Part shown: one piece after another, positions 1-63,992 of the stretch
Numbering within the stretch: the stretch's first letter is position 1
Layout: every line of letters starts with the position of its first letter
NCBI RefSeq assembly: GCF_037038585.1
Contig: NC_092522.1
Location: 124,602,661 to 124,666,660 of the forward strand
Length of the DNA: 64,000 bases
Origin: Patagioenas fasciata
Taxonomy: Eukaryota > Chordata > Aves > Columbiformes > Columbidae
Reading direction: 5' to 3'
Program-made: the position numbers and the translations under genes
Notes under the pieces: generated by a model
The model's database searches: none
Told to the model about the DNA's origin: nothing
The model's input: only the letters and a program-made list of their open reading frames with translations

Positions 1-1822
1 CCCTGGGCGCTGAGGATGGGACACGACACCTGCGAGGTCTCACTGTCCCCAGGCCTACTGGACCGCGTGGAGACCGTGCTGGGGAGAGACCCGCCCTGGC
101 CAGCCGGCTGCAGGTCTGCGCTGCCGGCACCGCCGCGTTTTGTGCAAGGCTGCTGCTCAGGAGAAGCCCTGATGTCCTGCCCATCCAGTCCCATCTGTCC
201 CTGTGGTGTCCTGAGGACAGCGTACGGGGCTTTCGAGCTTTTGCTGCCCGAAAGGCTTATGGGCTCGTCGCGGTCCGCGTGGCTCCTTTGGCCGAGCAGC
301 TGGTCTTTCTCCCACGTGTAGACTGGCTTCCCACCGATGACCAGCTCAAATTTCAGTTCCAGCTTCATCTCCACCACTTGGCCCTTGGCCACCACCAGGT
401 AGTATCCGTGGAGGAAGACGACCAGCATGGGCAGGTCCTGTTGTTCCTGGGGCTCGCTGCAGTGCGGGCAGCTGCTGGTGACGCACCGACGGCACTGCAG
501 GCAGACCAGATATTCTCTGCTCTTGGATTTGTGCAAGGCTGGAGTCGCGCTCTTCTGAGATGTTGCCTTTGGCTCCTCCATCAGGTCGTGGCAGACTTTG
601 GTCATGTCCAGGGAGTCCATCAGGGATCTGCTGAGCTCTTCCATGTTACCGATGGAGTGCTGGTTCCTGGGGAGCTCGGAGCTGCTGTCAGCACGGGAAC
701 GTCCACCTGGAGCCTTGTTTTCTGTCTCCTGGGGGAGCTCCCTTGCAGAGGCTGCTTCCCCACCGCAGCTGCTTCTCCACGATTCTCCTTGCTGGGGAAT
801 GCACTGGCTGTGGGGGAAAGAGCGGCTGGACTGTGGGGGCTGCTGTGGGGCAGGACAGACCCAGCACCCTCTCTCTGCCTTCTCCCGTCCCATGGGAGAT
901 CTCCCAGCTCCCCGGTGCCAGCCCTGCCAGCTCTGGGATCGCTGGCTGAGCTGGGGACCTGGGGACACGGGCCAAGCCCAGCCCAGCAGCGTGAGGGCAG
1001 AACGAGGGGCTGGGAACCTTCAGCCCAAGGCAGGGGCTCCCGAGGGGCTGCCCCTGCAGGGAAGGGCTCTCCTTACCCAGACCTGGAGCTCTCTGCAGAC
1101 ACCTCCTTGCTTTCACAGGGCTCTGGCTGCGATGGGCTCCCTTGGCCGGGAGCCGCAGTCTTGACCAGGGCAGCTCTGGGACGGGGCTGCTTCCCCATGG
1201 GGTCCGTCCCTCTGCTGCTCTGAGGTTTCATCCTCACAGAGGTGCCCTGTCCGCAGGAAGCAAAGCCCGGGTCAGTGTGGGGTGTCCCCCCTCGGCCAGG
1301 AAACAAGGACCCTGGGAAGGGTGGCTGGAGTGACAGGGACAGGAGTGGCCCAGCCCCAAGCCTGGTGCCCAGCGGAGGTGGCTCGGTGGCTCCATGGCAG
1401 GGGCCCGGCTGGGTGGGCAATGGCCACTGCTCACTGTTCCCTCCCAAAACGGGGCCCAGGACAGACACTGACCTTGGCCTTGATGTTGCTGGCCCAACGG
1501 GCCATGTAGATGCTCACACCCATGCTGCCCAGCGAGGTGATGATGCGGGGCAGCAGGATGTTGCAGAGGATCCAGACAGTCAGGAAGAAGATGAAGATCA
1601 GCAGGATCAGCTGCCAATCCCCCATGTTCCTGACGCAGCGCCTGAATCTCCTCTGGGGTCTCTGCAGGACAAGGGGATGTGCAAAGTGTCAGCTGGGGAG
1701 GCCGAGAAACCCGGCGAGATCCCCGGGGCGAGGAGAGGTTGGGGTGACACCGAAGCACCCGCTCCTACCTGCGCCTTTGCTTTTCTTTCCATCTCTGATG
1801 TGCTTTCCACACACTTGCCCAT
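1..1822 (-). CDS. Array gene copy 1, uncharacterised membrane-anchored Cys-cluster protein (3' end outside window)
   Basis: Inferred coding exons, read on the minus strand, are 1822-1769, 1661-1473, 1246-1077 and 807 to the window edge. Splice sites are consensus-like (CAG|GTAGGA, AAG|GTCAGT, GG|GTAAGG) and all phases agree. The start at 1822 is chosen because exon 1 joins in frame to exon 2, adding 30 residues ahead of the internal MGDWQ methionine at 1625. The product begins MGKCVESTSEME. This copy has the Ile variant in the membrane segment (TVWILC) and the MKPQSSRG variant of exon 3, both shared with copy 3. The C-terminal part of the last exon is off the window. Function unknown. Confidence 0.7.
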
Positions 1823-1889
1823 CTCACTTGCTCGCTTGCTCACTGGCTCGCGTGCAGTCAAAGTGACACCTGAGCCTCCCCGAAACCCA

Positions 1890-1929
1890 CTTAAATAGGG
1901 GCCACGTTTGTGATGCACCGGTGACATCA
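1890..1929 (-). promoter_or_regulatory. TATA-like box and CRE-like octamer, array gene copy 1
   Basis: On the minus strand CTATTTAAG (1898-1890) lies 68 bases upstream of the start codon. The octamer TGATGTCA (1929-1922) lies a further 24 bases upstream and is one base from the cAMP response element TGACGTCA. Such TATA plus CRE pairs are known from CREM-driven haploid germ-cell promoters; use here is inference. Confidence 0.5.
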
Positions 1930-2744
1930 CAGTGACACACAAGGGCTGCCCGGTGACCCAGGGCTGAGCTGGCACAGGGGATGGTGCAGCCGCCCCAGAG
2001 AGCCCCTGTGTCAGGGTTTGGGGGACACAGCCCAGGGCCTGCAGGGAGCAGCCCCATGGGGAGCCAGAGCGGCCACCCCAGGGGCAGGGGGTTCCCAGCA
2101 GCCAGGGACCCTGCGCTGGTCTCTCGGCCCCTCTCCTGCCCCAGGGATCCTGGCCAGGCCCTGGGACACCCTGTTGTGGCGACAGGGAGGCCTGAGGGGG
2201 AAGGATGGGCGTGGGTTGGGCCAGTTCCCCTCAGGGCTCCTCAGGGAAATGCCCATCCCCCCGCAGGTACCCCCTCAGGAGCCGCCAGGGTGACTTTTGT
2301 GGCCAACGCTCCCTACGCTGCCCTGGCCTTGGTGTGGAGGAGCCCGTCGACCTGGGACCGGCCATGGGCCGGGGTGGCCGGTCCCCTCCCTCAGTGCCGG
2401 CGGGTGCGAGTCTCTGTGTCCCCAGCTGGCCACAATGGTCCCTGCACTTTGGTCTTCAGGCCAGCAGTGCGGCTGCAGAACAACATCAAAGATCTATTTA
2501 GGCAGGCGATAATCTACACACAGGCTTTCTTCTGACCAGAAAAGAGAACCATCTAGAAATTCGGTTTATCCAAAGTTACTGAACAATCTGCCAACACTAA
2601 AGAACATTAAACAACACGGATTCGGGTACAGTTTGGGAGTTTAGTTACTACACATCTGATTCAAATTCGAGGAATCCCAAATCTCTGTCATGATGGTTCA
2701 AAATGTGCACCTTCCGACTTCTCCAAAGTGAGAACTCTCAGGGG

Positions 2745-3079
2745 TCACAGAATCCCAGAATCTCAGGGGTTGAAGGGACCTGGAAAGCTCATCCAGTGCA
2801 ATCCCCCCATGGAGCAGGAACACCCAGCTGAGGTTCCACAGGAAGGTGTCCAGGCGGGTTTGAATGTCTGCAGAGAAGGAGACTCCACAACCTCCCTGGG
2901 CAGCCTGGGCCAGGCTCTGACACCCTCACCCCCAACAAGTTGCTTCTCAAATTTAAGTGGAACCTCCTGTGTTCCAGTTTGTACCCATTGCCCCTTGTCC
3001 TGTCACTGGCTGTCACCCAGAAGAGCCTGGCTCCGTCCTCCTGACACTGCCCCTTTCCATATAGATCACCATTAATGAG
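2745..3079 (-). mobile_element. CR1 LINE 3' fragment (array copy 1)
   Basis: Reverse complement of a CR1 3' end: the plus strand starts TCACAGAATCCCAGAAT, followed by the CATCCAGTGCAATCCCC and CTGGGCAGCCTGGGCCAGG blocks. It is cut at 3079, where an AT-rich tract starts the next array unit. The copy at the array end (25754-26330) continues further, so the cut is a duplication junction rather than normal CR1 truncation. Confidence 0.85.
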
Positions 3080-3352
3080 GTCATTATTTTAATTATTAAT
3101 TAATCATCATTAATTTCCCCAGAGCAGAAGGGTCCCCTCTGGCCATGCAAGGTGCGAATGGGTGGTAAGAAGTGTTTAGTGTGGGACAGCCCGGCTGCAT
3201 TCGTGGATGGGAGAGGCTGGAGGGGCCCTGGAGATGTTTAATTCTACAGCAGGGTGGCCGTGAGCCTGGGGTGGCTCAGTCCTACACCACGTGGACATGG
3301 GGCAGAGCCTTCCCTGGTGACCACCAGCTGCCCTTCCCCAGCCACAACTCAC

Positions 3353-3442
3353 CCCAAAGACGGAGTCGAGCTTCATGAGGATGCGGTCGTTCCTCCCCAG
3401 CGCTTGCAGGAGCCTCAGCTGCTTGCCCTCCAGCAGGAAACC
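3353..3442 (-). other. Symmetric 90-nt exon-like segment, array copy 2
   Basis: On the minus strand a pyrimidine-rich acceptor (TGCCTCCCAAG) is followed by exactly 30 codons, GFLLEGKQ...MKLDSVFG, and then the donor GTGAGT. The exon is phase 0 at both ends. It lies downstream of the poly(A) signal of the array gene in the same copy and upstream of the promoter of copy 1, so it probably belongs to another gene caught in the duplication. This copy has GRNDRI where copies 3 to 5 have GRDERI. No partner exon was found and the protein was not recognised. Confidence 0.5.
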
Positions 3443-3789
3443 CTTGGGAGGCAGGCAGAGAAGAGGGTGAGGAGAAACAGCGAGCGCCTGCATTCCCGCC
3501 GCGAAGCCAGCCCGTGCCACACTGCGGCTGTGCCGCCCTGCGGGGACAGACCGAGCGGGCAGCGGCTGCCAAGGGTGAGGGGGCTCTGGAGCAGCCTCCC
3601 AGCACAGAGGAGAGATGGAGCTATCAGCACGGTGATGCCGAAAGAACATCATGGTCCGAAGCTCTTGCTGACTGTCCCCAGAGATGAGGAACAGCCTGGA
3701 GTATCAGACGGAGAAGCCTGGGCTTATTCTGGTCTGGGCAGCCTTGGATTTGGGCAGCAGGGCTGTGCCTGCCAGTACCTTCATTAGCA

Positions 3790-4275
3790 TCACACAATCA
3801 TAGAATCATTTTAGTTGGAAAAGACCCTCAAGAACATCAAGTCCAAGCATTAACCTCACATTGGCACTGCCCCATGTCCCTGAGAACCTCATGTCCGTCT
3901 GTCCAGCCCTGCAGGGATGGTGACTCCAGCACTGCCCTGGGCAGCCTGTTCCAATGCCCCACAGCCCTTTGGGGAAGAAATTGTTCCCAGATCCAACCTC
4001 AACCTCCCCTGGCGCAACTTGAGGCCGTTTCCTCTGCTCCTGGCGCTTGTTCCTGGGGAGCAGAGCCCGACCCCCCTGGCTCCAAGCTCCTTTCAGGCAG
4101 TTCAGAGATCAGAAGGTCTCCCCTCAGCTCCCGTTCTCCAGCTGAACCCCCCAGGTCCCTCAGCCGCTCCCATCACACTTGTGCTCCAGCCCCTCACCAG
4201 CTCCGCTCCCTTCTCTCCACTCGCTCCAGCACTTCGAAGTCTCTCCTGCAGTGAGGGACCAAAGGCTGCCAGGAC
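3790..4275 (-). mobile_element. CR1 LINE 3' fragment (array copy 2)
   Basis: Antisense CR1 3' region: CATAGAATCATTTTAGTTGG, then the GTCCGTCTGTCCAGCCC and GGGGAAGAAATTGTTCCC blocks typical of avian CR1 3' ends. Present in every complete array copy, so it predates the amplification. The left border has a clear CR1 3' terminus; the right border is approximate. Confidence 0.85.
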
Positions 4276-4849
4276 TAGGGCAGCTCTCCAGCACTGGATG
4301 CCTTGAAAGACCCACATGCACAGAGACAGCTGGTTCCTCAGGACCATGGGGGCCAAGGGACAGTTTCTCAGCCTCCTCTGCAGGGGAATTATCCCTACGT
4401 GACCTTGCTTTGTGCTGGCAAAAGGTGCTGTGCTCACAGGAGGAAGCTTTCACCACTGATGGATGATGTTCTCCTACTCGCCATAGCTGGGATACATCCA
4501 TACCCACCTGAGGAAGGTGGAAGAGCTTTCCCACCTCCTCCCAGCGACCATTGGTGGGGAGTAACATCCGCGAGCCCGATCTGAGAGGCACGGACGATTA
4601 AGGGGGTCAGGACAGAGTTATTGATGTTGAGAAGTGGCCCCAGGGCCCTGGGAGAGCTCGCTGGGTGCTGTGTGCTCTGCGCTGCTGGTCCTGGCTGGGT
4701 CAGCAGAGCCCTGTGAGGCGGCACAGGGGCTGTGCCAGGATCCCGCTGTGCACAGCGCCTGCCCCCGCCAGCCCCGCGGAGCCTGGAGCTTGTTCTCCCT
4801 GTTTAGTCCAGAAACAAAGAGCTCTTCAGACTGTTTCAAGGATTGCAGA

Positions 4850-4855
4850 GTTTAA
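4850..4855 (-). terminator. Candidate poly(A) signal of array gene copy 2
   Basis: ATTAAA on the minus strand, 506 bases after the stop codon at 5361. It is conserved at the same place in copies 3, 4 and 5. A 3' UTR of about 0.5 kb is inferred. Confidence 0.4.
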
Positions 4856-5360
4856 TGGTGAGAGAAGCGTGGTGTCAGCGCCGAGTTCTCCGCTCACAGC
4901 TGCTCGAGGCCTCCAGAGGCGGCAGGCGGATCTTTGCTCCATCCCAGCAGAGCTCGAGGCGCTTGGGGGCTCCTCCTGTCCTTGGGCCGGAGCTGCACAG
5001 GGAGCAAACGAGTCGGGGGTGTGAGCAGCAGCATGGGGCGTCTCCTGGGCCCCAGCAGGGTGGGGGCAGCTGGCTCAGTGCACACGGGAACCAGCGGCCA
5101 TCTGCTGGAGCACCTCCATGGGCCAAGGGGACCCAGCTGGTGGGGAGTCAGCACTTTGTGTCACCCCCATCCAAACCAGCACCAGCAGAAGCCACCCCGT
5201 CTGCCAGCGCCACCCCAACACTCCACAGGACCTCGTCCTGCAGAAACACCTCCCCACCAACCTGGCTCTGACAGCTGCACGGGACAGCCCGGCCCCGGCC
5301 TCCCACGCTGCGCCGCCCCTGCCCACGCTCCTCGCCGTCCCATCTCGTTCTGCCAAAGCT

Positions 5361-7585
5361 CTACACCACCACCTCTGTGATGTGCAGAAGAGCGTCAGCC
5401 CTGCGCTGGAGATCCAGTCGCACCATCTGCTCCCACTCCATGGCGTCTGTGGGTTCCGAGTTCCCAGCGATGCAGAAATACTTCAGTGCAGCCCTCAGTC
5501 TCCTTTTCACGTTGGCCCAGGAGTACCGGATGCGCTGCTGCCGACTGAAGCCCGGCTCCAAGCCCTTGAACCCCACTGCTGGCAGCGGCTCCAGCGCAGC
5601 CCTGCGCAGGCGCTCCAGGGCCACAGGGGTAGGGGGCTGTGCCCTTGCGGGCCAGAGATACGTGGGCAACGTGTTGGGGAGAGGCTCCCCCTGCCCAGCC
5701 GGCTGCAGGTCTGGCGCAGCCCTTGTGTCCTTCTTGGCCAGTCCTGTCTGTCCCTCTGGTGTCCCCTGGGCGCTGAGGATGGGACACGACACCTGCGAGG
5801 TCTCACTGTCCCCAGGCCTACTGGACCGCGTGGAGACCGTGCTGGGGAGAGACCCCCCCTGGCCAGCCGGCTGCAGGTCTGTGCTGCCGGCACCGCCGCG
5901 TTTTGTGCAAGGCTGCTGCTCAGGAGAAGCCCTGATGTCCTGCCCATCCAGTCCCATCTGTCCCTGTGGTGTCCTGAGGACAGCGTACGGGGCTTTTGAG
6001 CTTTTGCTGCCCGAAAGGCTTATGGGCTCGTCGCGGTCCGCGTGGCTCCTTTGGCCGAGCAGCTGGTCTTTCTCCCACGTGTAGACTGGCTTCCCACCGA
6101 TGACCAGCTCAAATTTCAGTTCCAGCTTCATCTCCACCACTTGGCCCTTGGCCACCACCAGGTAGTACCCGTGGAGGAAGACGACCAGCATGGGCAGGTC
6201 CTGTTGTTCCTGGGGCTCGCTGCAGTGCGGGCAGCTGCTGGTGACGCACCGACGGCACTGCAGGCAGACCAGATATTCTCTGCTCTTGGATTTGCGCAAG
6301 GCTGGAGTCGCGCTCTTCTGAGATGTTGCCTTTGGCTCCTCCATCAGGTCGTGGCAGACTTTGGTCATGTCCAGGGACTCCATCAGGGATCTGCTGAGCT
6401 CTTCCATGTTACCGATGGAGTGCTGGTTCCTGGGGAGCTCGGAGCTGCTGTCAGCACGGGAACGTCCACCTGGAGCCTTGTTTTCTGTCTCCTGGGGGAG
6501 CTCCCTTGCAGAGGCTGCTTCCCCATTGCAGCTGCTTCTCCACGATTCTCCTTGCTGGGGAATGCACTGGCTGTGGGGGAAAGAGCGGCTGGACTGTGGG
6601 GGCTGCTGTGGGGCAGGACAGACCCAGCACCCTCTCTCTGCCTTCTCCCGTCCCATGGGAGATCTCCCAGCTCCCCGGTGCCAGCCCTGCCAGCTCTGGG
6701 ATCGCAGGCTGAGCTGGGGACCTGGGGACACGGGCCAAGCCTAGCCCAGCAGCGTGAGGGCAGAACGAGGGGCTGGGAACCTTCAGCCCAAGGCAGGGGC
6801 TCCCGAGGGGCTGCCCCTGCAGGGAAGGGCTCTCCTTACCCAGACCTGGAGCTCTCTGCAGACACCTCCTTGCTTTCACAGGGCTCTGGCTGCGATGGGC
6901 TCCCTTGGCCGGGAGCCGCAGTCTTGCCCGGGGCAGCTCTGGGACGGGGCTGCTTCCCCATGGGGTCCGTCCCTCTGCTGCTCTTAAGTCTCTTCCTCAC
7001 ACACGTGCCCTGTCCGCAGGAAGCAAAGCCCGGGTCAGTGTGGGGTGTCCCTCCTCGGCCAGGAAACAAGGACCCTGGGAAGGGTGGCTGGAGTGACAGG
7101 GACAGGAGTGGCCCAGCCCCAAGCCTGGTGCCCAGCGGAGGTGGCTCGGTGGCTCCAGGGCAGGGGCCCGGCTGGGTGGGCAATGGCCACTGCTCACTGT
7201 TCCCTCCCAAAACGGGGCCCAGGACAGACACTGACCTTGGCCTTGATGTTGCTGGCCCAACGGGCCATGTAGATGCTCACACCCATGCTGCCCAGCGAGG
7301 TGATGATGCGGGGCAGCAGGATGTTGCAGAGGACCCAGACAGTCAGGAAGAAGATGAAGATCAGCAGGATCAGCTGCCAATCCCCCATGTTCCTGACGCA
7401 GCGCCTGAATCTCCTCTGGGGTCTCTGCAGGACAAGGGGATGTGCAAAGTGTCAGCTGGGGAGGCCGAGAAACCCGGCGAGATCCCCGGGGCGAGGAGAG
7501 GTTGGGGTGACACCGAAGCACCCGCTCCTACCTGCGCCTTTGCTTTTCTTTCCATCTCTGATGTGTTTTCCACACACTTGCCCAT
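5361..7585 (-). CDS. Array gene copy 2, uncharacterised membrane-anchored Cys-cluster protein, intact
   Basis: Exons on the minus strand are 7585-7532 (54 nt), 7424-7236 (189 nt), 7009-6840 (170 nt) and 6570-5361 (1210 nt). All junction phases match and give 540 residues plus a TAG stop. Visible parts: MGKCVENT N-terminus (Gly2 and Cys4 could be acylated); basic run RPQRRFRRCVRN at 19-30; one hydrophobic segment around 34-56 (LILLIFIFFLTVWVLC); a polar Ser/Pro/Arg-rich region; five cysteines at about 240, 243, 246, 251 and 254; a hydrophobic strand-like block (LPMLVVFLHGYYLVVA) near 263-278; two partial repeats ending in DLQPAGQG; and a basic segment near residue 490-512. The start is chosen for the in-frame splice; MGDWQ at 7388 is an internal alternative. 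The acceptor of the last exon is the best polypyrimidine site in the correct phase but is a prediction. No family recognised; single-pass membrane location is inferred. Confidence 0.72.
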
Positions 7586-7652
7586 CTCGCTTGCTCGCTT
7601 GCTCACTGGCTCGCGTGCAGTCGAAGTGACACCTGAGCCTCCCCAAAACCCA

Positions 7653-7692
7653 CTTAAATAGGGGCCACGTTTGTGATGCACCGGTGACATCA
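7653..7692 (-). promoter_or_regulatory. TATA-like box and CRE-like octamer, array gene copy 2
   Basis: Same arrangement as in copy 1: CTATTTAAG upstream of the start at 7585, and TGATGTCA a further 24 bases upstream. Base-for-base retention in all five copies is consistent with recent duplication and does not by itself show selection. Confidence 0.5.
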
Positions 7693-8509: not shown

Positions 8510-8845
8510 TCACAGAATCCCAGAATGTCAGGGGTTGGAAGGGCCCTGGAAAGCTCATCCAGTGCAATCCCCCCATGGAGCAGGAACACCCAGCTGAGGT
8601 TCCACAGGAAGGGGTCCAGGCGGGTTTGAATGTCTGCAGAGAAGGAGACTCCACAACCTCCCTGGGCAGCCTGGGCCAGGCTCTGACACCCTCACCCCCA
8701 ACAAGTTGCTTCTCCTCTTTCAGTGGAACCTCCTGTGTTCCAGTTTGCACCCATTGCCCCTTGTCCTGTCACTGGTTGTCACCCAGAAGAGCCTGGCTCC
8801 GTCCTCCTGACAGTGCCCCTTTCCATATAGATCACCATTAATGAG
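8510..8845 (-). mobile_element. CR1 LINE 3' fragment ending at array junction (copy 2)
   Basis: Antisense CR1 3' end matching the fragment at 2745-3079. It stops at the junction with the AT-rich start of copy 3. Confidence 0.85.
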
Positions 8846-9123
8846 GTCATTATTTTAATTATTAATTAATCATCATTAATTTCCCCAGAGCAGAAGGGTC
8901 CCCTCTGGCCATGCCACGCAAGGTGCGAATGGGTGGTAAGAAGTGTTTAGTGTGGGACAGCCCGGGTGTATTTGTGGATGGGAGAGGCTGGAGGGGCCCT
9001 GGAGATGTTTAATTCTACAGCAGGGTGGCCGTGAGCCTGGGGTGGCTCAGTCCTGCACCACGTGGACATGGGGCAGAGCCTTCCCTGGTGACCACCAGCT
9101 GCCCTTCCCCAGCCACAACTCAC

Positions 9124-9213
9124 CCCAAAGACGGAGTCGAGCTTCATGAGGATGCGCTCGTCCCTCCCCAGCGCTTGCAGGAGCCTCAGCTGCTTGCCCT
9201 CCAGCAGGAAACC
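9124..9213 (-). other. Symmetric 90-nt exon-like segment, array copy 3
   Basis: Same 30-codon phase 0 segment with intact acceptor and GTGAGT donor. Reads GRDERILMKLDSVFG at its C-terminal end. Confidence 0.5.
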
Positions 9214-10618: not shown

Positions 10619-10624
10619 TTTAAT
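10619..10624 (-). terminator. Candidate poly(A) signal of array gene copy 3
   Basis: ATTAAA on the minus strand about 505 bases downstream of the stop at 11129. Confidence 0.4.
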
Positions 10625-11128: not shown

Positions 11129-13353
11129 CTACACCACCACCTCTGTGATGTGCAGAAGAGCGTCAGCCCTGCGCTGGAGATCCAGTCGCACCATCTGCTC
11201 CCACTCCATGGCGTCTGTGGGTTCCGAGTTCCCAGCGATGCAGAAATACTTCAGTGCAGCCCTCAGTCTCCTTTTCACGTTGGCCCAGGAGTACCGGATG
11301 CGCTGCTGCCGACTGAAGCCCGGCTCCAAGCCCTTGAACCCCACTGCTGGCAGCGGCTCCAGCGCAGCCCTGCGCAGCCGCTCCAGGGCCACAGGGGTAG
11401 GGGGCTGTGCCCATGCGGGCCAGAGATACGTGGGCAACGTGTTGGGGAGAGGTTCCCCCTGCCCAGCCGGCTGCAGGTCTGGCGCAGCCCTTGTGTCCTT
11501 CTTGGCCAGTCCTGTCTGTCCCTCTGGTGTCCCCTGGGCGCTGAGGATGGGACACGACACCTGCGAGGTCTCACTGTCCCCAGGCCTACTGGACCGCGTG
11601 GAGACCGTGCTGGGGAGAGACCCGCCCTGGCCAGCCGGCTGCAGGTCTGCGCTGCCGGCACCGCCGCGTTTTGTGCAAGGCTGCTGCTCAGGAGAAGCCC
11701 TGATGTCCTGCCCATCCAGTCCCATCTGTCCCTGTGGTGTCCTGAGGACAGCGTACGGGGCTTTCGAGCTTTTGCTGCCCGAAAGGCTTATGGGCTCGTC
11801 GCGGTCCGCGTGGCTCCTTTGGCCGAGCAGCTGGTCTTTCTCCCACGTGTAGACTGGCTTCCCACCGATGACCAGCTCAAATTTCAGTTCCAGCTTCATC
11901 TCCACCACTTGGCCCTTGGCCACCACCAGGTAGTATCCGTGGAGGAAGACGACCAGCATGGGCAGGTCCTGTTGTTCCTGGGGCTCGCTGCAGTGCGGGC
12001 AGCTGCTGGTGACGCACCGACGGCACTGCAGGCAGACCAGATATTCTCTGCTCTTGGATTTGTGCAAGGCTGGAGTCGCGCTCTTCTGAGATGTTGCCTT
12101 TGGCTCCTCCATCAGGTCGTGGCAGACTTTGGTCATGTCCAGGGAGTCCATCAGGGATCTGCTGAGCTCTTCCATGTTACCGATGGAGTGCTGGTTCCTG
12201 GGGAGCTCGGAGCTGCTGTCAGCACGGGAACGTCCACCTGGAGCCTTGTTTTCTGTCTCCTGGGGGAGCTCCCTTGCAGAGGCTGCTTCCCCATCGCAGC
12301 TGCTTCTCCACGATTCTCCTTGCTGGGGAATGCACTGGCTGTGGGGGAAAGAGCGGCTGGACTGTGGGGGCTGCTGTGGGGCAGGACAGACCCAGCACCC
12401 TCTCTCTGCCTTCTCCCGTCCCATGGGAGATCTCCCAGCTCCCCGGTGCCAGCCCTGCCAGCTCTGGGATCGCTGGCTGAGCTGGGGACCTGGGGACACG
12501 GGCCAAGCCCAGCCCAGCAGCGTGAGGGCAGAACGAGGGGCTGGGAACCTTGAGCCCAAGGCAGGGGCTCCCGAGGGGCTGCCCCTGCAGGGAAGGGCTC
12601 TCCTTACCCAGACCTGGAGCTCTCTGCAGACACCTCCTTGCTTTCACAGGGCTCTGGTTGCGATGGGCTCCCTTGGCCGGGAGCCGCAGTCTTGCCCAGG
12701 GCAGCTCTGGGACGGGGCTGCTTCCCCATGGGGTCCGTCCCTCTGCTGCTCTGAGGTTTCATCCTCACAGAGGTGCCCTGTCCGCAGGAAGCAAAGCCCG
12801 GGTCAGTGTGGGGTGTCCCCCCTCGGCCAGGAAACAAGGACCCTGGGAAGGGTGGCTGGAGTGACAGGGACAGGAGTGGCCCAGCCCCAAGCCTGGTGCC
12901 CAGCGGAGGTGGCTCGGTGGCTCCATGGCAGGGGCCCGGCTGGGTGGGCAATGGCCACTGCTCACTGTTCCCTCCCAAAACGGGGCCCAGGACAGACACT
13001 GACCTTGGCCTTGATGTTGCTGGCCCAACGGGCCATGTAGATGCTCACACCCATGCTGCCCAGCGAGGTGATGATGCGGGGCAGCAGGATGTTGCAGAGG
13101 ATCCAGACAGTCAGGAAGAAGATGAAGATCAGCAGGATCAGCTGCCAATCCCCCATGTTCCTGACGCAGCGCCTGAATCTCCTCTGGGGTCTCTGCAGGA
13201 CAAGGGGATGTGCAAAGTGTCAGCTGGGGAGGCCGAGAAACCCGGCGAGATCCCCGGGGCGAGGAGAGGTTGGGGTGACACCGAAGCACCCGCTCCTACC
13301 TGCGCCTTTGCTTTTCTTTCCATCTCTGATGTGCTTTCCACACACTTGCCCAT
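11129..13353 (-). CDS. Array gene copy 3, uncharacterised membrane-anchored Cys-cluster protein, intact
   Basis: Exons on the minus strand are 13353-13300, 13192-13004, 12777-12608 and 12338-11129, with the same phases as copy 2 and 540 residues. It carries the copy 1 type of sequence: MGKCVEST, TVWILC, and GTSVRMKPQ at the start of exon 3, against GTCVRKRLK in copies 2, 4 and 5. The reading frame is open throughout and the cysteine cluster is intact. Function not recognised; see copy 2 for domain layout. Confidence 0.72.
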
Positions 13354-14276: not shown

Positions 14277-14611
14277 TCACAGAATCCCAGAATCTCAGGG
14301 GTTGGAAGGGTCCTGTAACGCGCAACCAGTGCAATCCCCCCATGGAGCAGGAACACCCAGCTGAGGTTCCACAGGAAGGGGTCCAGGCGGGTTTGAATGG
14401 CTGCAGAGAAGGAGACTCCACAACCTCCCTGGGCAGCCTGGGCCAGGCTCTGACACCCTCACCCCAAACAAGTTGCTTCTCTAAATTTAAGTGGAACCTC
14501 CTGTGTTTCAGTTTGTACCCATCGCCCTTGTCCTATCACTGGTTGTCACCCAGAAGAGCCTGGCTCCGTCCTCCTGCACTGCCCCTTTCCATATAGATCA
14601 CCATTAATGAG
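14277..14611 (-). mobile_element. CR1 LINE 3' fragment ending at array junction (copy 3)
   Basis: Antisense CR1 3' end, same element as 2745-3079, with a few more differences than the other copies. Confidence 0.83.
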
Positions 14612-14884
14612 GTCATTATTTTAATTATTAATTAATCATCATTAATTTTTCCAGAGCAGAAGGGTCTCCTCTGGCCATGCAAGGTGCGAATGGGTGGTAA
14701 GAAGTGTTTAGTGTGGGACAGCCCGGCTGCATTTGTGGGTGGGAGAGGCTGGAGGGGCCATGGAGATGTTTAATTCTACACCAGGGTGGCCGTGAGCCTG
14801 GGGTGGCTCAGTCCTGCACCACGTGGACATGGGGCAGAGCCTTCCCTGGTGACCACCAGCTGCCCTTCCCCAGCCACAACTCAC

Positions 14885-14974
14885 CCCAAAGACGGAGTCG
14901 AGCTTCATGAGGATGCGCTCGTCCCTCCCCAGCGCTTGCAGGAGCCTCAGCTGCTTGCCCTCCAGCAGGAAACC
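14885..14974 (-). other. Symmetric 90-nt exon-like segment, array copy 4
   Basis: Same 30-codon phase 0 segment with intact splice sites. Identical in protein to copy 3. Confidence 0.5.
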
Positions 14975-16356: not shown

Positions 16357-16362
16357 TTTAAT
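16357..16362 (-). terminator. Candidate poly(A) signal of array gene copy 4
   Basis: ATTAAA on the minus strand about 505 bases downstream of the normal stop at 16867. Confidence 0.4.
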
Positions 16363-16866: not shown

Positions 16867-19091
16867 CTACACCACCACCTCTGTGATGTGCAGAAGAGCG
16901 TCAGCCCTGCGCTGGAGATCCAGTCGCACCATCTGCTCCCACTCCATGGCGTCTGTGGGTTCCGAGTTCCCAGCGATGCAGAAATACTTCAGTGCAGCCC
17001 TCAGTCTCCTTTTCACGTTGGCCCAGGAGTACCGGATGCGCTGCTGCCGACTGAAGCCCGGCTCCAAGCCCTTCAACCCCACTGCTGGCAGCGGCTCCAG
17101 CGCAGCCCTGCGCAGCCGCTCCAGGGCCACAGGGGTAGGGGGCTGTGCCCATGCGGGCCAGAGATACGTGGGCAACGTGTTGGGGAGAGGCTCCCCCTGC
17201 CCAGCCGGCTGCAGGTCTGGCGCAGCCCTTGTGTCCTTCTTGGCCAGTCCTGTCCGTCGCTCTGGTGTCCCCTGGGCGCTGAGGATGGGACACGACACCT
17301 GCGAGGTCTCAATGTCCCCAGGGCTACTGGACCGCGTGGAGACCGTGCTGGGGAGAGACCCCCCCTGGCCAGCCGGCTGCAGGTCTGCGCTGCCGGCACC
17401 GCCGCGTTTTGTGCAAGGCTGCTGCTCAGGAGAAGCCCTGATGTCCTGCCCATCCAGTCCCATCTGTCCCTGTGGTGTCCTGAGGACAGCGTACGGGGCT
17501 TTCGAGCTTTTGCTGCCCGAAAGGCTTATGGGCTCGTCGCGGTCCGTGTGGCTCCTTTGGCCGAGCAGCTGGTCTTTCTCCCACGTGTAGACTGGCTTCC
17601 CACCGATGACCAGCTCAAATTTCAGTTCCAGCTTCATCTCCACCACTTGGCCCTTGGCCACCACCAGGTAGTATCCGTGGAGGAAGACGACCAGCATGGG
17701 CAGGTCCTGTTGTTCCTGGGGCTCGCTGCAGTGCGGGCAGCTGCTGGTGACGCACCGACGGCACTGCAGGCAGACCAGATATTCTCTGCTCTTGGATTTG
17801 TGCAAGGCTGGAGTCGCGCTCTTCTAAGATGTTGCCTTTGGCTCCTCCATCAGGTCGTGGCAGACTTTGGTCATGTCCAGGGACTCCATCAGGGATTTGC
17901 TGAGCTCCTCCATGTTGCCGATGGAGTGGCGGTTCCTGGGGAGCTCAGAGCTGCTGTCAGCACGGGAACGTCCACCTGGAGCCTTGTTTTCTGTCTCCTG
18001 GGGGAGCTCCCTTGCAGAGGCTGCTTCCCCATCGCAGCTGCTTCTCCACGATTCTCCTTGCTGGGGAATGCACTGGCTGTGGGGGAAAGAGCGGCTGGAC
18101 TGTGGGGGCTGCTGTGGGGCAGGACAGACCCAGCACCCTCTCTCTGCCTTCTCCCGTCCCATGGGAGATCTCCCAGCTCCCCGGTGCCAGCCCTGCCAGC
18201 TCTGGGATTGCTGGCTGAGCTGGGGACCTGGGGACACGGGCCAAGCCCAGCCCAGCAGCGTGAGGGCAGAACGAGGGGCTGGGAACCTTCAGCCCAAGGC
18301 AGGGGCTCCCGAGGGGCTCCCCCTGCAGGGAAGGGCTCTCCTTACCCAGACCTGGAGCTCTCTGCACACACCTCCTTGCTTTCACAGGGCTCTGGCTGCG
18401 ATGGGCTCCCTTGGCCGGGAGCCGCAGTCTTGCCCAGGGCAGCTCTGGGACGGGGCTGCTTCCCCATGGGGTCCGTCCCTCTGCTGCTCTTAAGTCTCTT
18501 CCTCACACAGGTGCCCTGTCCGCAGGAAGCAAAGCCCGGGTCAGTGTGGGGTGTCCCCCCTCGGCCAGGAAACAAGGACCCTGGGAAGGGTGGCTGGAGT
18601 GACAGGGACAGGAGTGGCCCAGCCCCAAGCCTGGTGCCCAGCGGAGGTGGCTCGGTGGCTCCAGGGCAGGGGCCCGGCTGGGTGGGCAATGGGCACTGCT
18701 CACTGTTCCCTCCCAAAACGGGGCCCAGGACAGACACTGACCTTGGCCTTGATGTTGCTGGCCCAACGGGCCATGTAGATGCTCACACCCATGCTGCCCA
18801 GCGAGGTGATGATGCGGGGCAGCAGGATGTTGCAGAGGACCCAGACAGTCAGGAAGAAGATGAAGATCAGCAGGATCAGCTGCCAATCCCCCATGTTCCT
18901 GACGCAGCGCCTGAATCTCCTCTGGGGTCTCTGCAGGACAAGGGGATGTGCAAAGTGTCAGCTGGGGAGGCCGAGAAACCCGGCGAGATCCCCGGGGCGA
19001 GGAGAGGTTGGGGTGACACCGAAGCACCCGCTCCTACCTGCGCCTTTGCTTTTCTTTCCATCTCTGATGTGTTTTTCACACACTTGCCCAT
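16867..19091 (-). pseudogene. Array gene copy 4, truncated by a nonsense codon
   Basis: Exons on the minus strand are 19091-19038, 18930-18742, 18515-18346 and 18076-16867. Splice sites and promoter are retained. In the last exon the CAG codon found in the other copies (in the motif KATSQKS) is TAG at 17826-17824, so the product would stop after about 221 of 540 residues. That removes the cysteine cluster and everything after it. Downstream the frame is still open to the normal stop, so the change looks recent. It begins MGKCVKNT. It could still make a short membrane-anchored product, or the base could be an assembly or allelic difference. Confidence 0.65.
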
Positions 19092-19158
19092 CTCGCTTGC
19101 TCGCTTGCTCACTGGCTCGCGTGCAGTCGAAGTGACACCTGAGCCTCCCCGAAACCCA

Positions 19159-19198
19159 CTTAAATAGGGGCCACGTTTGTGATGCACCGGTGACATCA
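19159..19198 (-). promoter_or_regulatory. TATA-like box and CRE-like octamer, array gene copy 4
   Basis: Same CTATTTAAG and TGATGTCA pair as in the intact copies, although this gene copy has a premature stop. Confidence 0.5.
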
Positions 19199-20015
19199 CA
19201 GTGACACACAAGGGCTGCCCGGTGCCCCAGGGCTGAGCTGTCGCAGGGGATGGTGCAGCCGCCCCAGAGAGCCCCTGTGTCAGGGTTTGGGGGACACAGC
19301 CCAGGGCCTGCAGGGAGCAGCCCCATGGGGAGCCAGAGCGGCCATCCCCAGGGGCAGGGTGTTCCCAGCAGCCAGGGACCCTGCGCTGGTCTCTCAGCCC
19401 CTCTCCTGCCCCAGGGATCCTGGCCAGGCCCTGGGACACCCTGTTGTGGCGGCAGGGAGGCCTGAGGGGGAAGGATGGGCGTGGGTTGGGCCAGTTCCCC
19501 TCAGGGCTCCTCAGGGAAATGCCCATCCCCCCGCAGGTACCCCCTCAGGAGCCGCCAGGGTGACTTTTGTGGCCAGCGCTCCCTACGCTGCCCTGGCCTT
19601 GGTGTGGAGGAGCCCGTCGACCTGGGACCGGCCATGGGCCGGGGTGGCCGGTCCCCTCCCTCGGTGCCGGCGGGTGCGAGTCTCTGTGTCCCCAGCTGGC
19701 CACAATGGTCCCTGCACTTTGGTCTTCAGGCCAGCAGTGCGGCTGCAGAACAACATCAAAGATCTATTTAGGCAGGCGATAATCTACACACAGGCTTTCT
19801 TCTGACCAGAAAAAGAGAACCATCTAGAAATTCGGTTTATCCAAAGTTACTGAACACTCTGCCAACACTAAAGAACATTAAACAACACGGATTCGGGTAC
19901 AGTTTGGGAGTTTAGTTACTACACATCTGATTCAAATTCGAGGAATCCCAAATCTCTGTCATGATGGTTCAAAATGTGCACCTTCCGACTTTTCCAAAGT
20001 GAGAACTCTCAGGGG

Positions 20016-20350
20016 TCACAGAATCCCAGAGTGTCAGGGGTTGAAGGGCCCTGGAAAGCTCATCCAGTGCAATCCCCCCATGGAGCAGGAACACCCAGCT
20101 GAGGTTCCACAGGAAGGTGTCCAGGCGGGTTTGAATGTCTGCAGAGAAGGAGACTCCACAACCTCCCTGGGCAGCCTGGGCCAGGCTCTGCCACCCTCAC
20201 CCCCAACAAGTTGCTTCTCAAATTTAATTGGAACCTCCTGTGTTCCAGTTTGCACCCATTGCCCCTTGTCCTGTCACTGGCTGTCACCCAGAAGAGCCTG
20301 GCTCCGTCCTCCTGACACTGCCCCTTTCCATATAGATCACCATTAATGAG
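20016..20350 (-). mobile_element. CR1 LINE 3' fragment ending at array junction (copy 4)
   Basis: Antisense CR1 3' end, same element as 2745-3079. Confidence 0.85.
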
Positions 20351-20623
20351 CTCATTATTTTAATTATTAATTAATCATCATTAATTTCCCCAGAGCAGAA
20401 GGGTCCCCTCTGGCCATGCAAGGTGCGAATGGGTGGCAAGAAGTGTTTAGTGTGGGACATCTCGGGTGTATTTGTGGATGGGAGAGGCTGGAGGGGCCCT
20501 GGAGATGTTTAATTCTACACCAGGGTGGCCGTGAGCCTGGGGTGGCTCAGTCCTACACCACGTGGACATGGGGCAAAGCCTTCCCTGGTGACCACCAGCT
20601 GCCCTTCCCCAGCCACAACTCAC

Positions 20624-20713
20624 CCCAAAGACGGAGTTGAGCTTCATGAGGATGCGCTCGTCCCTCCCCAGCGCTTGCAGGAGCCTCAGCTGCTTGCCCT
20701 CCAGCAGGAAACC
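20624..20713 (-). other. Symmetric 90-nt exon-like segment, array copy 5
   Basis: Same 30-codon phase 0 segment; reads MKLNSVFG where the others have MKLDSVFG. Donor GTGAGT is kept; the acceptor region has one base change (GTCTCCCAAG). Confidence 0.48.
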
Positions 20714-21059
20714 CTTGGGAGACAGGCAGAGAAGAGGGTGAGGAGAAACAGCGAGCGCCTGCATTCCCGCCGCGAAGCCAGCCCGTGCCACACTGCGGCT
20801 GTGCCGCCCTGCGGGGACAGACCGAGCGGGCAGCGGCTGCCAAGGTGAGGGGGCTCTGGAGCAGCCTCCCAGCACAGAGGAGAGATGGAGCTATCAGCAC
20901 GGTGATGCCAAAAGGACCTCATGGTCTGAAGCTCTTGCTGACTGTCCCCAGAGATGAGGAACAGCCTGGAGCATCAGATGGAGAAGCCTGGGCTTATTCT
21001 GGTCTGGGCAGCCTTGGATTTGGGCAGCAGGGCTGTGCCTGCCAGTACCTTCATTAGCA

Positions 21060-21545
21060 TCACACAATCATAGAATCATTTTAGTTGGAAAAGACCCTCA
21101 AGAACATCAAGTCCAAGCATTAACCTCACATTGGCACTGCCCCATGTCCCTGAGAACCTCATGTCCGTCTGTCCAGCCCTCCAGGGATGGTGACTCCAGC
21201 ACTGCCCTGGGCAGCCTGTTCCAATGCCCCACAGCCCTTTGGGGAAGAAATTGTTCCCAGATCCAACCTCAACCTCCCCTGGTGCAACTTGAGGCCGTTT
21301 CCTCTGCTCCTGGCGCTTGTTCCTGGGGAGCAGAGCCCGACCCCCCTGGCTCCAAGCTCCTTTCAGGCAGTTCAGAGATCAGAAGGTCTCCCCTCAGCTC
21401 CTGTTCTCCAGCTGAACCCCCCAGCTCCCTCAGCCGCTCCCATCACACTTGTGCTCCAGCCCCTCACCAGCTCCGTTCCCTTCTCTCCACTCGCTCCAGC
21501 ACTTCGAAGTCTCTCCTGCAGTGAGGGACCACAGGCTGCCAGGAC
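21060..21545 (-). mobile_element. CR1 LINE 3' fragment (array copy 5)
   Basis: Orthologous to the CR1 at 3790-4275 within the duplicated unit. Confidence 0.85.
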
Positions 21546-22094
21546 TAGGGCAGCTCTCCAGCTCTGGATGCCTTGAAAGACCCACATGCACAAAGACAGC
21601 TGGTTCCTCAGGACCATGGGGGCCAAGGGACAGTTTCTCAGCCTCCTCTGCAGGGGAATTATCCCTACGTGACCTTGCTTTGTGCTGGCAAAAGGTGCTG
21701 TGCTCACAGGAGGAAGCTTTCACCACTGATGGATGATGTTCTCCTTCTCCCCACCTGAGAAAGGTGGAAGAGCTTTCCCACCTCCTCCCAGCGACCGTTG
21801 GTGGGGAGTAACATCCGCGAGCCCGATCTGAGGGGCACGGACGATTAAGGGGGTCAGGGCACAGTTATTGATGTTGAGAAGTGGCCCCAGGGCCCTGGGA
21901 GAGCTCGCTGGGTGCTGTGTGCTCTGCGCTGCTGGTCCTGGCTGGGTCAGCAGAGCCCTGTGAGGCGGCACAGGGGCTGTGCCAGGATCCCGCTGTGCAC
22001 AGCGCCCCCCGCCAGCCCCGCGGAGCCTGGAGCTTGTTCTTCCTGTTTAGTCCAGAAACAAAGAGCTCTTGAGACTGTTTCAAGGATTGCAGAG

Positions 22095-22100
22095 TTTAAT
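22095..22100 (-). terminator. Candidate poly(A) signal of array gene copy 5
   Basis: ATTAAA on the minus strand about 505 bases downstream of the stop at 22605. Confidence 0.4.
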
Positions 22101-22604
22101 GGTGAGAGAAGCATGGTGTCAGCGCCGAGTTCTCCGCTCACAGCTGCTCGAGGCCTCCAGAGGCGGCAGGCGGATCTTCGCTCCATCCCAGCAGAGCTCC
22201 AGGCGCTTGGGGGCTCCTCCTGTCCTTGGGCCGGGGCTGCACAGGGAGCAAACGAGTCGGGGGTGTGAGCAGCAGCATGGGGCGTCTCCTGGGCCCCAGC
22301 AGGGTGGGGGCAGCTGGCTCAGTGCACACGGGAACCAGCGGCCATCTGCTGGAGCACCTCCATGGGCCAAGGGGACCCAGCTGGTGGGGAGTCAGCACTT
22401 TGTGTCACCCCCACCCAAACCAGCACCAGCAGAGTTCACCCCGTCTGCCAGCGCCACCCCAACACTCCACAGGACCTCGTCCTGCAGAAACACCTCCCCA
22501 CCAACCTGGCTCTGACAGCTGCACGGGACAGCCCGGCCCCGGCCTCCCACGCTGCGCCGCCCCTGCTCACGCTCCTCGCCGTCCCATCTCGTTCTGCCAA
22601 AGCT

Positions 22605-24829
22605 CTACACCACCACCTCTGTGATGTGCAGAAGAGCGTCAGCCCTGCGCTGGAGATCTAGTCGCACCATCTGCTCCCACTCCATGGCGTCTGTGGGTTC
22701 CGAGTTCCCAGCGATGCAGAAATACTTCAGTGCAGCCCTCAGTCTCCTTTTCACGTTGGCCCAGGAGTACCGGATGCGCTGCTGCCGACTGAAGCCCGGC
22801 TCCAAGCCCTTGAACCCCACTGCTGGCAGCGGCTCCAGCGCAGCCCTGCGCAGGCGCTCCAGGGCCACAGGGGTAGGGGGCTGTGCCCATGCGGGCCAGA
22901 GATACGTGGGCAACGTGTTGGGGAGAGGTTCCCCCTGCCCAGCCGGCTGCAGGTCTGGCGCAGCCCTTGTGTCCTTCTTGGCCAGTCCTGTCCGTCCCTC
23001 TGGTGTCCCCTGGGCGCTGAGGATGGGACACGACACCTGCGAGGTCTCACTGTCCCCAGGGCTACTGGACCGCGTGGAGACCGTGCTGGGGAGAGACCCC
23101 CCCTGCCCAGCCGGCTGCCGGTCTGCGCTGCCGGCACCGCTGCGTTTTGTGCAAGGCTGCTGCTCAGGAGAAGCCCTGATGTCCTGCCCATCCAGTCCCA
23201 TCTGTCCCTGTGGTGTCCTGAGGACAGTGTATGGGGCTTTCGAGCTTTTGCTGCCCGAAAGGCTTATGGGCTCGTCGCGGTCCGTGTGGCTCCTTTGGCC
23301 GAGCAGCTGGTCTTTCTCCCACGTGTAGACTGGCTTCCCACCGATGACCAGCTCAAATTTCAGTTCCAGCTTCATCTCCACCACTTGGCCCTTGGCCACC
23401 ACCAGGTAGTATCCGTGGAGGAAGACGACCAGCATGGGCAGGTCCTGTTGTTCCTGGGGCTCGCTGCAGTGCGGGCAGCTGCTGGTGACGCACCGACGGC
23501 ACTGCAGGCAGACCAGATATTCTCTGCTCTTGGATTTGTGCAAGGCTGGAGTCGCGCTCTTCTGAGATGTTGCCTTTGGCTCCTCCATCAGGTCGTGGCA
23601 GACTTTGGTCATGTCCAGGGACTCCATCAGGGATTTGCTGAGCTCCTCCATGTTGCCGATGGAGTGCTGGTTCCTGGGGAGCTCAGAGCTGCTGTCAGCA
23701 TGGGAACGTCCACCTGGAGCCTTGTTTTCTGATTCCTGGGGTAGCTCCCTTGCAGGGGCTGCTTCCCCATCGCAGCTGCTTCTCCACAATTCTCCTCGCT
23801 GGGGAACGCACTGGCTGTGGGGGAAAGAGCGGCTGGACTGTGGGGGCTGCTGTGGGGCAGGACAGACCCAGCACCCTCTCTCTGCCTTCTCTCGTCCCAT
23901 GGGAGATCTCCCAGCTCCCCGGTGCCAGCCCTGCCAGCTCTGGGATCGCTGGCTGAGCTGGGGACCTGGGGACACGGGCCAAGCCCAGCCCAGCAGCGTG
24001 AGGGCAGAACGAGGGGCTGGGAACCTTCAGCCCAAGGCAGGGGCTCCCGAGGGGCTGCCCCTGCAGGGAAGGGCTCTCCTTACCCAGACCTGGAGCTCTC
24101 TGCAGACACCTCCTTGCTTTCACAGGGCTCTGGCTGCGATGGGCTCCCTTGGCCGGGAGCCGCAGTCTTGCCCAGGGCAGCTCTGGGACGGGGCTGCTTC
24201 CCCATGGGGTCCGTCCCTCTGCTGCTCTTAAGTCTCTTCCTCACACACGTGCCCTGTCCGCAGGAAGCAAAGCCCGGGTCAGTGTGGGGTGTCCCCCCTT
24301 GGCCAGAAAACAAGGACCCTGGGAAGGGTGGCTGGAGTGACAGGGACAGGAGTGGCCCAGCCCCAAGCCTGGTGCCCAGCGGAGGTGGCTCGGTGGCTCC
24401 AGGGCAGGGGCCCGGCTGGGTGGGCAACGGCCACTGCTCACTGTTCCCTCCCAAAACAGGGCCCAGGACAGACACTGACCTTGGCCTTGATGTTGCTGGC
24501 CCAACGGGCCATGTAGATGCTCACACCCATGCTGCCCAGCGAGGTGATGATGCGGGGCAGCAGGATGTTGCAGAGGACCCAGACAGTCAGGAAGAAGATG
24601 AAGATCAGCAGGATCAGCTGCCAATCCCCCATGTTCCTGACGCAGCGCCTGAATCTCCTCTGGGGTCTCTGCAGGACAAGGGGATGTGCAAAGTGTCAGC
24701 TGCGGAGGCCGAGAAACCCGGCGAGATCCCCGGGGCGAGGAGAGGTTGGGGTGACACCGAAGCACCCGCTCCTACCTGCGCCTTTGCTTTTCCTTCCGTC
24801 ACTGATGTGTTTTTCACACACTTGCCCAT
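22605..24829 (-). CDS. Array gene copy 5, uncharacterised membrane-anchored Cys-cluster protein, intact
   Basis: Exons on the minus strand are 24829-24776, 24668-24480, 24253-24084 and 23814-22605, same phases as copy 2, 540 residues. It is the most diverged intact copy near the N-terminus: MGKCVKNTSVTEGKAKAQ against MGKCVENTSEMERKAKAQ in copy 2, plus several replacements at the start of the last exon (QCVPQRGELW). The cysteine cluster and C-terminal block are intact. It is the copy nearest PTK2B and is oriented away from it. Confidence 0.72.
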
Positions 24830-24896
24830 CTCGCTTGCTCGCTTGCTCACTGGCTCGCGTGCAGTCAAAGTGACACCTGAGCCTCCCCGAAACCCA

Positions 24897-24936
24897 CTTA
24901 AATAGGGGCCACGTTTGTGATGCACCGGTGACATCA
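24897..24936 (-). promoter_or_regulatory. TATA-like box and CRE-like octamer, array gene copy 5
   Basis: CTATTTAAG 68 bases upstream of the start at 24829, with TGATGTCA upstream of it. Confidence 0.5.
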
Positions 24937-25753
24937 CAGTGACACACAAGGGCTGCCCGGTGACCCAGGGCTGAGCTGTCGCAGGGGATGGTGCAGCCGC
25001 CCCAGAGAGCCCCTGTGTCAGGGTTTGGGGGACACAGCCCAGGGCCTGCAGGGAGCAGCCCCATGGGGAGCCAGAGCGGCCATCCCCAGGGGCAGGGTGT
25101 TCCCAGCAGCCAGGGACCCTGCGCTGGTCTCTCGGCCCCTCTCCTGCCCCAGGGATCCTGGCCAGGCCCTGGGACACCCTGTTGTGGCGGCAGGGAGGCC
25201 TGAGGGGGAAGGATGGGCGTGGGTTGGGCCAGTTCCCCTCAGGGCTCCTCAGGGAAATGCCCATCCCCCCGCAGGTACCCCCTCAGGAGCCGCCAGGGTG
25301 ACTTTTGTGGCCAACGCTCCCTACGCTGCCCTGGCCTTGGTGTGGAGGAGCCCGTCGACCTGGGACCGGCCATGGGCCAGGGTGGCCGGTCCCCTCCCTC
25401 AGTGCCGGCGGGTGCGAGTCTCTGTGTCCCCAGCTGGCCACAATGGTCCCTGCACTTTGGTCTTCAGGCCAGCAGTGCGGCTGCAGAACAACATCAAAGA
25501 TCTATTTAGGCAGGCGATAATCTACACACAGGCTTTCTTCTGACCAGAAAAAGAGAACCATCTAGAAATTCGGTTTATCCAAAGTTACTGAACAATCTGC
25601 CAACACTAAAGAACATTAAACAATACGGATTCGGGTACAGTTTGGGAGTTGAGTTACTACACATCTGATTCAAATTCAAGGAATCCCAAATCTTTGTCAT
25701 GATGGTTCAAAATGTGCACCTTCCGACTTCTCCAAAGTGTGAACTCCCAGGGG

Positions 25754-26330
25754 TCACAGTATCACAGTAGATTTGGGTTTGGAAGGGCCCTGGAAAGCTC
25801 ATCCAGTGCAATCCCCCCATGGAGCAGGAACACCCAGCTGAGGTTCCACAGGAAGGTGTCCAGGCGGGTTTGAATGTCTGCAGAGAAGGAGACTCCACAA
25901 CCTCCCTGGGCAGCCTGGGCCAGGCTCTGCCACCCTCACCCCCAACAAGTTGCTTCTCATCTTTAAGTGGAACCTCTTGTGTTCCAGTTTGCACCCATTG
26001 CCCCTTGTCCTGTCACTGGTTGTCACCCAGAAGAGCCTGGCTCCATCCTCCTGACACTCCCCCTTCCCATATTGATCCCCAGGAATGAGTCCCCCCTCAG
26101 TCTCCTCTTCTCCAGCTCCAGAGCCCCAGCTCCCTCAGCCTTTCCTCACACGGGAGATGCTCCACTCCCTCCAGCATCTTGGTGGCTGCGCTGGACTCTC
26201 TGCAGCAGTTCCCTGTCCTTCTGGAGCTGAGGGGCCACAACTGGACACAAGATTCCAGGTGTGGTCTCCCCAGGCAGAGCAGAGGGGCAGGAGAACCTCT
26301 CTGACCTACTGACCACCCCCTTCTAACCCA
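25754..26330 (-). mobile_element. CR1 LINE fragment spanning the right end of the array
   Basis: Antisense CR1. The part to 26089 matches the CR1 ends inside the array; the remainder (GAGTCCCCCCTCAGTCTCC and on) continues as ordinary CR1 sequence. This is the uninterrupted form of the element in which the array junctions lie. Confidence 0.85.

Positions 26331-47676: not shown

Positions 47677-63992
<16,316 letters not shown>

Follow-up and report, generated by a model that had tools for sequence, protein, structure and literature searches.

How did near-identical copies of one gene come to stand head to tail in the genome of the pigeon Patagioenas fasciata, and what does their sequence say about their origin and upkeep? 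We analysed a stretch of 64,000 nucleotides (NCBI RefSeq assembly GCF_037038585.1, contig NC_092522.1, positions 124,602,661 to 124,666,660 of the forward strand; hereafter the window), the left part of which is filled by such copies. The best explanation as a whole is, in all likelihood, a genuine and fairly recent tandem amplification of the type A member of a fast-evolving bird gene family. The expansion is real, lineage-specific and ordinary; its link to DRC1, a dynein regulatory complex gene, is unusual.

The array consists of a unit holding the whole gene, repeated head to tail, with unit landmarks 5738–5768 bp apart (successive spacings 5763, 5768, 5738 and 5738). In a self-BLAST, positions 1–20350 align with 5764–26089 at 98.06% identity, beyond which homology stops, giving one long diagonal accompanied by shorter diagonals at two, three and four units. 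Exact 24-mers repeated at a lag of 5.7–5.8 kb number 14,210 in positions 1–26089, compared with 0 in each of 20 first-order Markov simulations. Pairwise identity between units ranges over 97.53–99.09% (ten pairs, the four comparisons with the leftmost unit U0 being restricted to its 3,079 bases), and each full unit carries 33–61 private singleton differences. A preliminary description of this DNA had proposed a recent tandem amplification of at least 4.5 copies from MGDWQ codons at 1625, 7388, 13156, 18894 and 24632, and had named a self-alignment as one check; all five positions are exact, on the minus strand, and the landmark spacing, the unit identity and the long diagonal bear the amplification out.

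Similarity among the units is not simply a matter of adjacency. U0 is closest to U2 (99.09%), not to the adjoining U1 (98.54%), and in columns 5100–5700, near the unit end, it is closer to U3 (8 + 11 differences from U2, 1 + 7 from U3). Among U1–U4, the three types of two-against-two site pattern occur 23, 10 and 9 times. Such mixed patterns, together with the affinities of U0, are as expected if exchange or conversion mixes the units.

Our gene model, built from relatives and splice consensus rather than from transcripts, places the gene on the minus strand, with coding exons of 54, 189, 170 and 1210 bases and a product of 540 amino acids in full-length copies. The earlier statement that every unit is a complete gene stands for three of the five copies (c2, c3 and c5), which are open over their full length. 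It does not hold for c4, in which an in-frame TAG ends the frame at 17824 after 221 of 540 amino acids, the remainder of exon 4 being retained, nor for c1, which is open over 406 codons and then cut by the window edge. An ATTAAA lies 504 bases past the stop in the three copies examined (c5, c3 and c2). MGDWQ sits in coding exon 2 of the model, and MGKC lies 30 codons upstream, in exon 1. An MGK start in exon 1 is annotated in five relatives (P0002, P0004, P0006, P0014 and P0017), and MGEW, the equivalent of MGDW, is the annotated start in two (P0003 and P0016), which favours the start of the preliminary description; the start annotated for a further relative, P0001, lies still further upstream, where the frame is broken in c1 and c3. 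On these annotations MGKC is probably the likelier start, with MGDWQ a possible one.

Table 1 Features of the window, with positions counted from its first letter.
Feature	Position	Strand	Details
Tandem array	1..26089	.	~4.5 head-to-tail units; continues past the left edge of the window
Gene copy c1	1..1822	-	exons 1822-1769, 1661-1473, 1246-1077, 807 to window start; 3' end beyond window
Gene copy c2	5361..7585	-	exons 7585-7532, 7424-7236, 7009-6840, 6570-5361; 540 aa, open
Gene copy c3	11129..13353	-	exons 13353-13300, 13192-13004, 12777-12608, 12338-11129; 540 aa, open
Gene copy c4	16867..19091	-	exons 19091-19038, 18930-18742, 18515-18346, exon 4 from 18076
Gene copy c5	22605..24829	-	exons 24829-24776, 24668-24480, 24253-24084, 23814-22605; 540 aa, open
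Promoter block of c5	24898..24936	-	TGATGTCA 24936-24929, TATTTAA 24904-24898
Promoter blocks of other copies	19198-19160, 13460-13422, 7692-7654, 1929-1891	-	same motifs
Stray DRC1 exon	20621..20713	-	residues 514-543 of P. fasciata DRC1 (P0043); AG and GT borders
Further DRC1 exon copies	14882-14974, 9121-9213, 3350-3442	-	same piece
CR1-like fragment a	20016..20354	-	also 2745-3083, 8510-8849, 14277-14615; borders from match to 57401-57739
CR1-like fragment b	21060..21550	-	different subfamily; borders approximate, by eye
CR1-like element, right array edge	25775..26239	-	unit homology stops inside, at 26089; element continues to at least 26239
PTK2B (Pyk2) kinase exon(s), reading frame	60137..60646	+	matched PTK2B PDB chains; right-hand neighbour gene, outside array

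Of 7,994 candidates scored against the exon-4 protein of c5 (residues 79–431 of its open reading frame, ORF), 16 proved to be related at E ≤ 0.001. The closest, P0001, is annotated in P. fasciata itself; it is 98% identical to the query, differs from each of the four window copies compared at 14–20 residues, and is likely a sixth copy. Hawks and a cormorant show 33–43% identity to c5 exon 4, mostly across about half of the query, and a shorter relative, P0016, shows 53% over 36% of it. A profile search returned 40 proteins at E ≤ 0.01 among 7,992 candidates and extended the family to eagles, owls, storks, penguins, cranes, a shearwater, turkey and pheasant; mammals were absent from the family matches, in a search that reaches only relatives with short exact words in common. 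Named relatives are labelled uncharacterized or hypothetical, except for one crane protein called 'KIND domain-containing' in UniRef, in which a Pfam scan found no domain. Searches by locus name and on bird testis gene duplication (the latter judged by the titles listed) found no published description of this bird family, and those on DUF4679 and on DRC1, PTK2B and chicken chromosome 3 found only unrelated work.

In pigeons, the family falls into three types. The window genes resemble a type A gene known from Columba livia (LOC110364792, P0003) and C. guinea (Q9233_017370, P0002), with 82 and 83% identity, respectively, across the exon-4 query. Type B (C. livia LOC110356082 and Patagioenas AV530_009680) is 62–64% identical to c5 exon 4. 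Type C comprises P0009 of P. fasciata and C. livia Q9966_015372; P0009 is 40% identical in exon 4, and its promoter-to-exon-1 stretch is 91–95% identical to the window over 79 residues of translation. Types B and C of C. livia bear consecutive locus tags (Q9966_015373 and Q9966_015372). A tree of the 115-residue core, containing 14 of the 42 family proteins and four of the five window copies (18 sequences; c4 was omitted for poor coverage), has local supports of 0.75–0.91 around type A, with labels that may have shifted on rerooting. Each type contains both Columba and Patagioenas, indicating that types A, B and C separated before these genera split. The four window copies and P0001 group beside Columba type A, as type A orthologues, and cluster apart from the C. 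livia and C. guinea gene, in agreement with the lineage-specific expansion suggested earlier. According to an excerpt of PMC5080718, mitochondrial data date the split of the lineage of Patagioenas and the passenger pigeon from Old World pigeons to ~16.2 million years ago (95% CI 11.7–20.5), an earlier estimate of ~35 million years ago also being mentioned there. The origin or homogenisation of the array copies would fall after that split. Within C. livia, 105 of 108 residues of exons 2–3 are identical between types A and B, against only 66 of 112 in their cores; for type A of C. livia and window copy c3, the corresponding counts are 84 of 108 and 99 of 115. Because exons 2–3 of types A and B are near-identical and the cores divergent, the 5' half of the two types has probably been homogenised within Columba.

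The protein's most hydrophobic 19-residue windows lie in exon 2 (c3, mean hydropathy 2.9; next best past residue 75, 1.5), and this one strongly hydrophobic stretch supports, as probable, the membrane protein of the preliminary description. The product probably crosses a membrane once, and its predicted parts are an N-terminal helix, a small core bearing Cys residues and long tails lacking ordered structure; of the four columns invariant among 34 aligned sequences, three are Cys in the core. MGDW is the N-terminal motif of connexins; we rejected that identity, as P0001, which contains the MGDW exon, has no connexin domain match. No Pfam family reached its cut-off in five window ORFs, 25 of the 42 family proteins and three short window peptides. 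Matches below the cut-off were to DUF4679, Lipoprotein_15, RhoGEF67_u1, Zn_ribbon_15, SAB, NinF, DUF3039, TMEM9 and several Fer4 models (best Fer4_10 in P0021, E = 4.4e-4). P0009 carries a precomputed Pfam label, PF27961, and our own scan of this protein at E ≤ 1 returned no family. An AlphaFold2 model of c3 exon 4, computed from an alignment with 33 of the 42 family proteins, has a mean predicted local distance difference test (pLDDT) score of 53 and is confident mainly in residues 52–172. Given the 0 matches of the model in a Foldseek search of the PDB at E ≤ 0.001, we claim no fold. A PDB sequence search with the c5 exon-4 ORF gave no match below E = 0.36.

All five copies carry TGATGTCA at −107 and TATTTAA at −75 relative to the MGK ATG, so that calling the promoters cAMP response element (CRE)-like was correct as a statement on sequence. 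TGAYGTCA has five matches in the 64 kb against a chance mean of 4.06, with five or more in 38 of 100 shuffles; as this count is near chance, only the position and conservation of TGATGTCA carry weight. The annotated N-terminal extension of the cormorant protein P0013 matches translated pigeon DNA from −127 to −13 at 29 of 38 residues (alignment score 147; best of 200 base shuffles, 51), in a pigeon frame that does not reach the MGK start. Proteins of a crane (P0031, 22/41) and a hawk (P0012, 15/17) also agree with the promoter and leader translation. Between pigeon and cormorant, the exon-4 protein shows 33% identity; conservation is thus stronger in the promoter and leader than in the protein. 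In mouse spermatids, according to an excerpt of PMC3091680, CREM control is predicted by neither CRE nor TATA, and the conserved promoter consequently does not reveal the site of expression. The likeliest role of the product, put forward only tentatively and somewhat less probable than not, would be in male germ cells or ciliated cells.

The link to DRC1 comes from a 30-residue piece, 90–97% identical to P. fasciata DRC1, which lies downstream of the gene and on the same strand in all four full units. It first showed up as a weak similarity to DRC1 in the PDB (E = 0.052, or 0.2 with a longer query), later confirmed by comparison with DRC1 proteins. In tblastn with six DRC1 proteins only this piece, residues 514–543, was significant (E ≤ 4e-10), the next best match in the window having E = 0.039; a DRC1 gene or whole-gene pseudogene in the unit was therefore rejected. 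Among the 42 family proteins, searched for DRC1 pieces, the C. livia type C protein P0016 has at its C-terminus 29 DRC1 residues (90–100% identical to three DRC1s, 100% to P0044 of C. livia), and Buteo P0011 has at its N-terminus 19–20 residues resembling the start of DRC1 (75–84%; 84% to P0043). In P. fasciata and in Caloenas, the record with DRC1 is as long as the one with family members (126,428,221 and 122,862,783 bases, respectively), and the two hence probably share a chromosome in both; for the C. livia Q9966 proteins the records differ in length. Taken together, the family may have arisen by duplication from the DRC1 locus or its vicinity. As a separate observation, the annotated P. 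fasciata DRC1 (P0043) contains a 93-residue stretch twice, beginning just after the exon scattered in the array, as if exons had been duplicated.

The array edge suggests how the units may have multiplied. Both the units and the edge contain repeats that we take to be CR1. At the point where unit homology stops inside the right-edge element, the internal units pass into other DNA and not into the CR1-like continuation, an arrangement expected from unequal exchange between a pair of CR1-like repeats. We propose that unequal crossing-over between CR1-like repeats flanking a block with the gene and one DRC1 exon would have made the first duplication, that more unequal exchange would then have lengthened the array, and that gene conversion would keep its units alike. 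A literature search on CR1 recombination found no paper. Fragments a and b were also considered as one interrupted CR1, an idea dropped because fragment b has its own 3' part. A CR1-like element at 57401–57739, by the PTK2B exons, ends at nearly the same repeat point as fragment a.

Several points weigh against this account. Only the right edge of the array lies in the window, which leaves a second CR1 breakpoint out of view. Compared with the internal consensus over six successive 58-column segments, the edge copy shows 9, 0, 0, 3, 3 and 7 differences, and since it departs at both ends, one clean crossover is insufficient as an explanation. DRC1 is tied to the array only by a record length, 126,428,221 bases, that the two share, and P0001 may be an allele of another individual instead of a sixth copy. 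Finally, coding sequence varies as much as noncoding sequence, and constraint thus gives no sign of present function.

This last point rests on counts among the four full units, from which gapped columns and the CR1-like stretch were excluded: 52 variable sites in 1623 coding positions and 116 in 3766 noncoding ones (P = 0.80). Across c2, c3 and c5, variable sites at the first, second and third codon positions stand at 13:15:17. The ratio of nonsynonymous to synonymous divergence (dN/dS) is 0.57–0.64 in the three full-length pairs, not significantly below 1 (P 0.21–0.28), and 0.64 when the six pairs among c2–c5 are pooled. Across all ten pairs it is 0.41–1.18, exceeding 1 in two (1.03 and 1.18), both involving the partial c1. 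For exons 1–3 alone, it is 0.87–2.65 in five of six pairs and dS is zero in the sixth, with 0–2 synonymous changes per pair. This nonsynonymous excess appears to be largely one exon-3 patch, SVRMKPQ in c1 and c3 and CVRKRLK in c2, c4 and c5; type C of the same species (P0009) has SMRMKPQ, a resemblance that gene conversion would leave.

Equal coding and noncoding variation, the even codon positions and the early stop in one of four full-length genes argue against a simple 'amplified because useful' story. They also favour, together with the pooled dN/dS and the full-length ratios not significantly below 1, the view that repeat-rich, recombining DNA produced the array as a by-product, with most copies becoming pseudogenes. 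We regard such neutral decay as possible, if somewhat doubtful: three of the four full-length copies keep the 540-codon frame and the modelled splice sites, the promoter block is conserved to the cormorant, the three core Cys are invariant, and differences are so few that power is low. That dosage or diversifying selection on a reproductive protein maintains and expands the copies strikes us as unlikely. The divergence of exon 4 from hawks and cormorant beside a conserved promoter would fit it, as would the two locus names each in Buteo, Accipiter and Spheniscus, the CRE-like and TATA layout and the excess in exons 1–3. However, the full-length ratios are 0.57–0.64, the two ratios above 1 both involve partial c1, the exon-3 excess resembles conversion, and CRE and TATA do not predict CREM control. 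More ambitious, and in our view rather improbable, is an undescribed avian reproductive gene family grown in or around the DRC1 locus, with promoter, membrane helix and exons 1–3 homogenised between paralogues, a diverging Cys-rich core and independent re-amplification in several bird lineages; if true, the stray DRC1 exons would be scars of repeated duplication out of the locus and could splice into family transcripts. Repetition of a single gene through mis-assembly or unpurged haplotypes would account for the near-identity of the units but is highly improbable, because every full unit has its own singleton differences, and also in view of the unequal spacings, the c4-specific stop, the distinctness of annotated P0001 from each copy compared and the consecutively tagged type B and C paralogues of C. 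livia.

Read as a recent tandem amplification of the type A gene, the array is a clear case of local gene amplification whose DRC1 exon scar allows its origin to be traced; this scar and the conserved promoter are points worth following. If expressed in testis, the gene would be a fast-evolving, copy-variable candidate for sperm competition in birds. Tandem copies this similar easily collapse in short-read genomes, and families like this one can therefore go unseen.

To the right of the array, PTK2B exons on the plus strand extend over 56900–62400, with FERM and further kinase parts recognised by eye among the ORFs listed. Long minisatellites lie in and upstream of PTK2B (33433–35916, 39205–40336, 50267–52268, 54023–56202, 58859–59824 and 61588–62224), and a dispersed repeat occurs in two copies, 27004–27416 and 43536–43949, 97.6% identical and 16.5 kb apart.

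Among known systems, one named domain for comparison is DUF4679 (PF15728), weakly matched by Haliaeetus P0010 around its Cys-rich core (E = 4.2e-4, 19.9 bits). This score is under the Pfam cut-off of 27 bits, which none of the 25 of 42 family proteins and five window ORFs scanned attained; 2 of the 15 members of set A1 had any DUF4679 match, and the window proteins had none. The Columba type A genes are like those of the window, but are recorded as uncharacterized or hypothetical and are not known to form an array. Types B and C belong to the same family. Compared with lineage-specific tandem gene families in general, the pigeon array is alike in its tandem units, its signs of exchange or conversion and its occasional broken copy, and differs in that its units carry one stray DRC1 exon.

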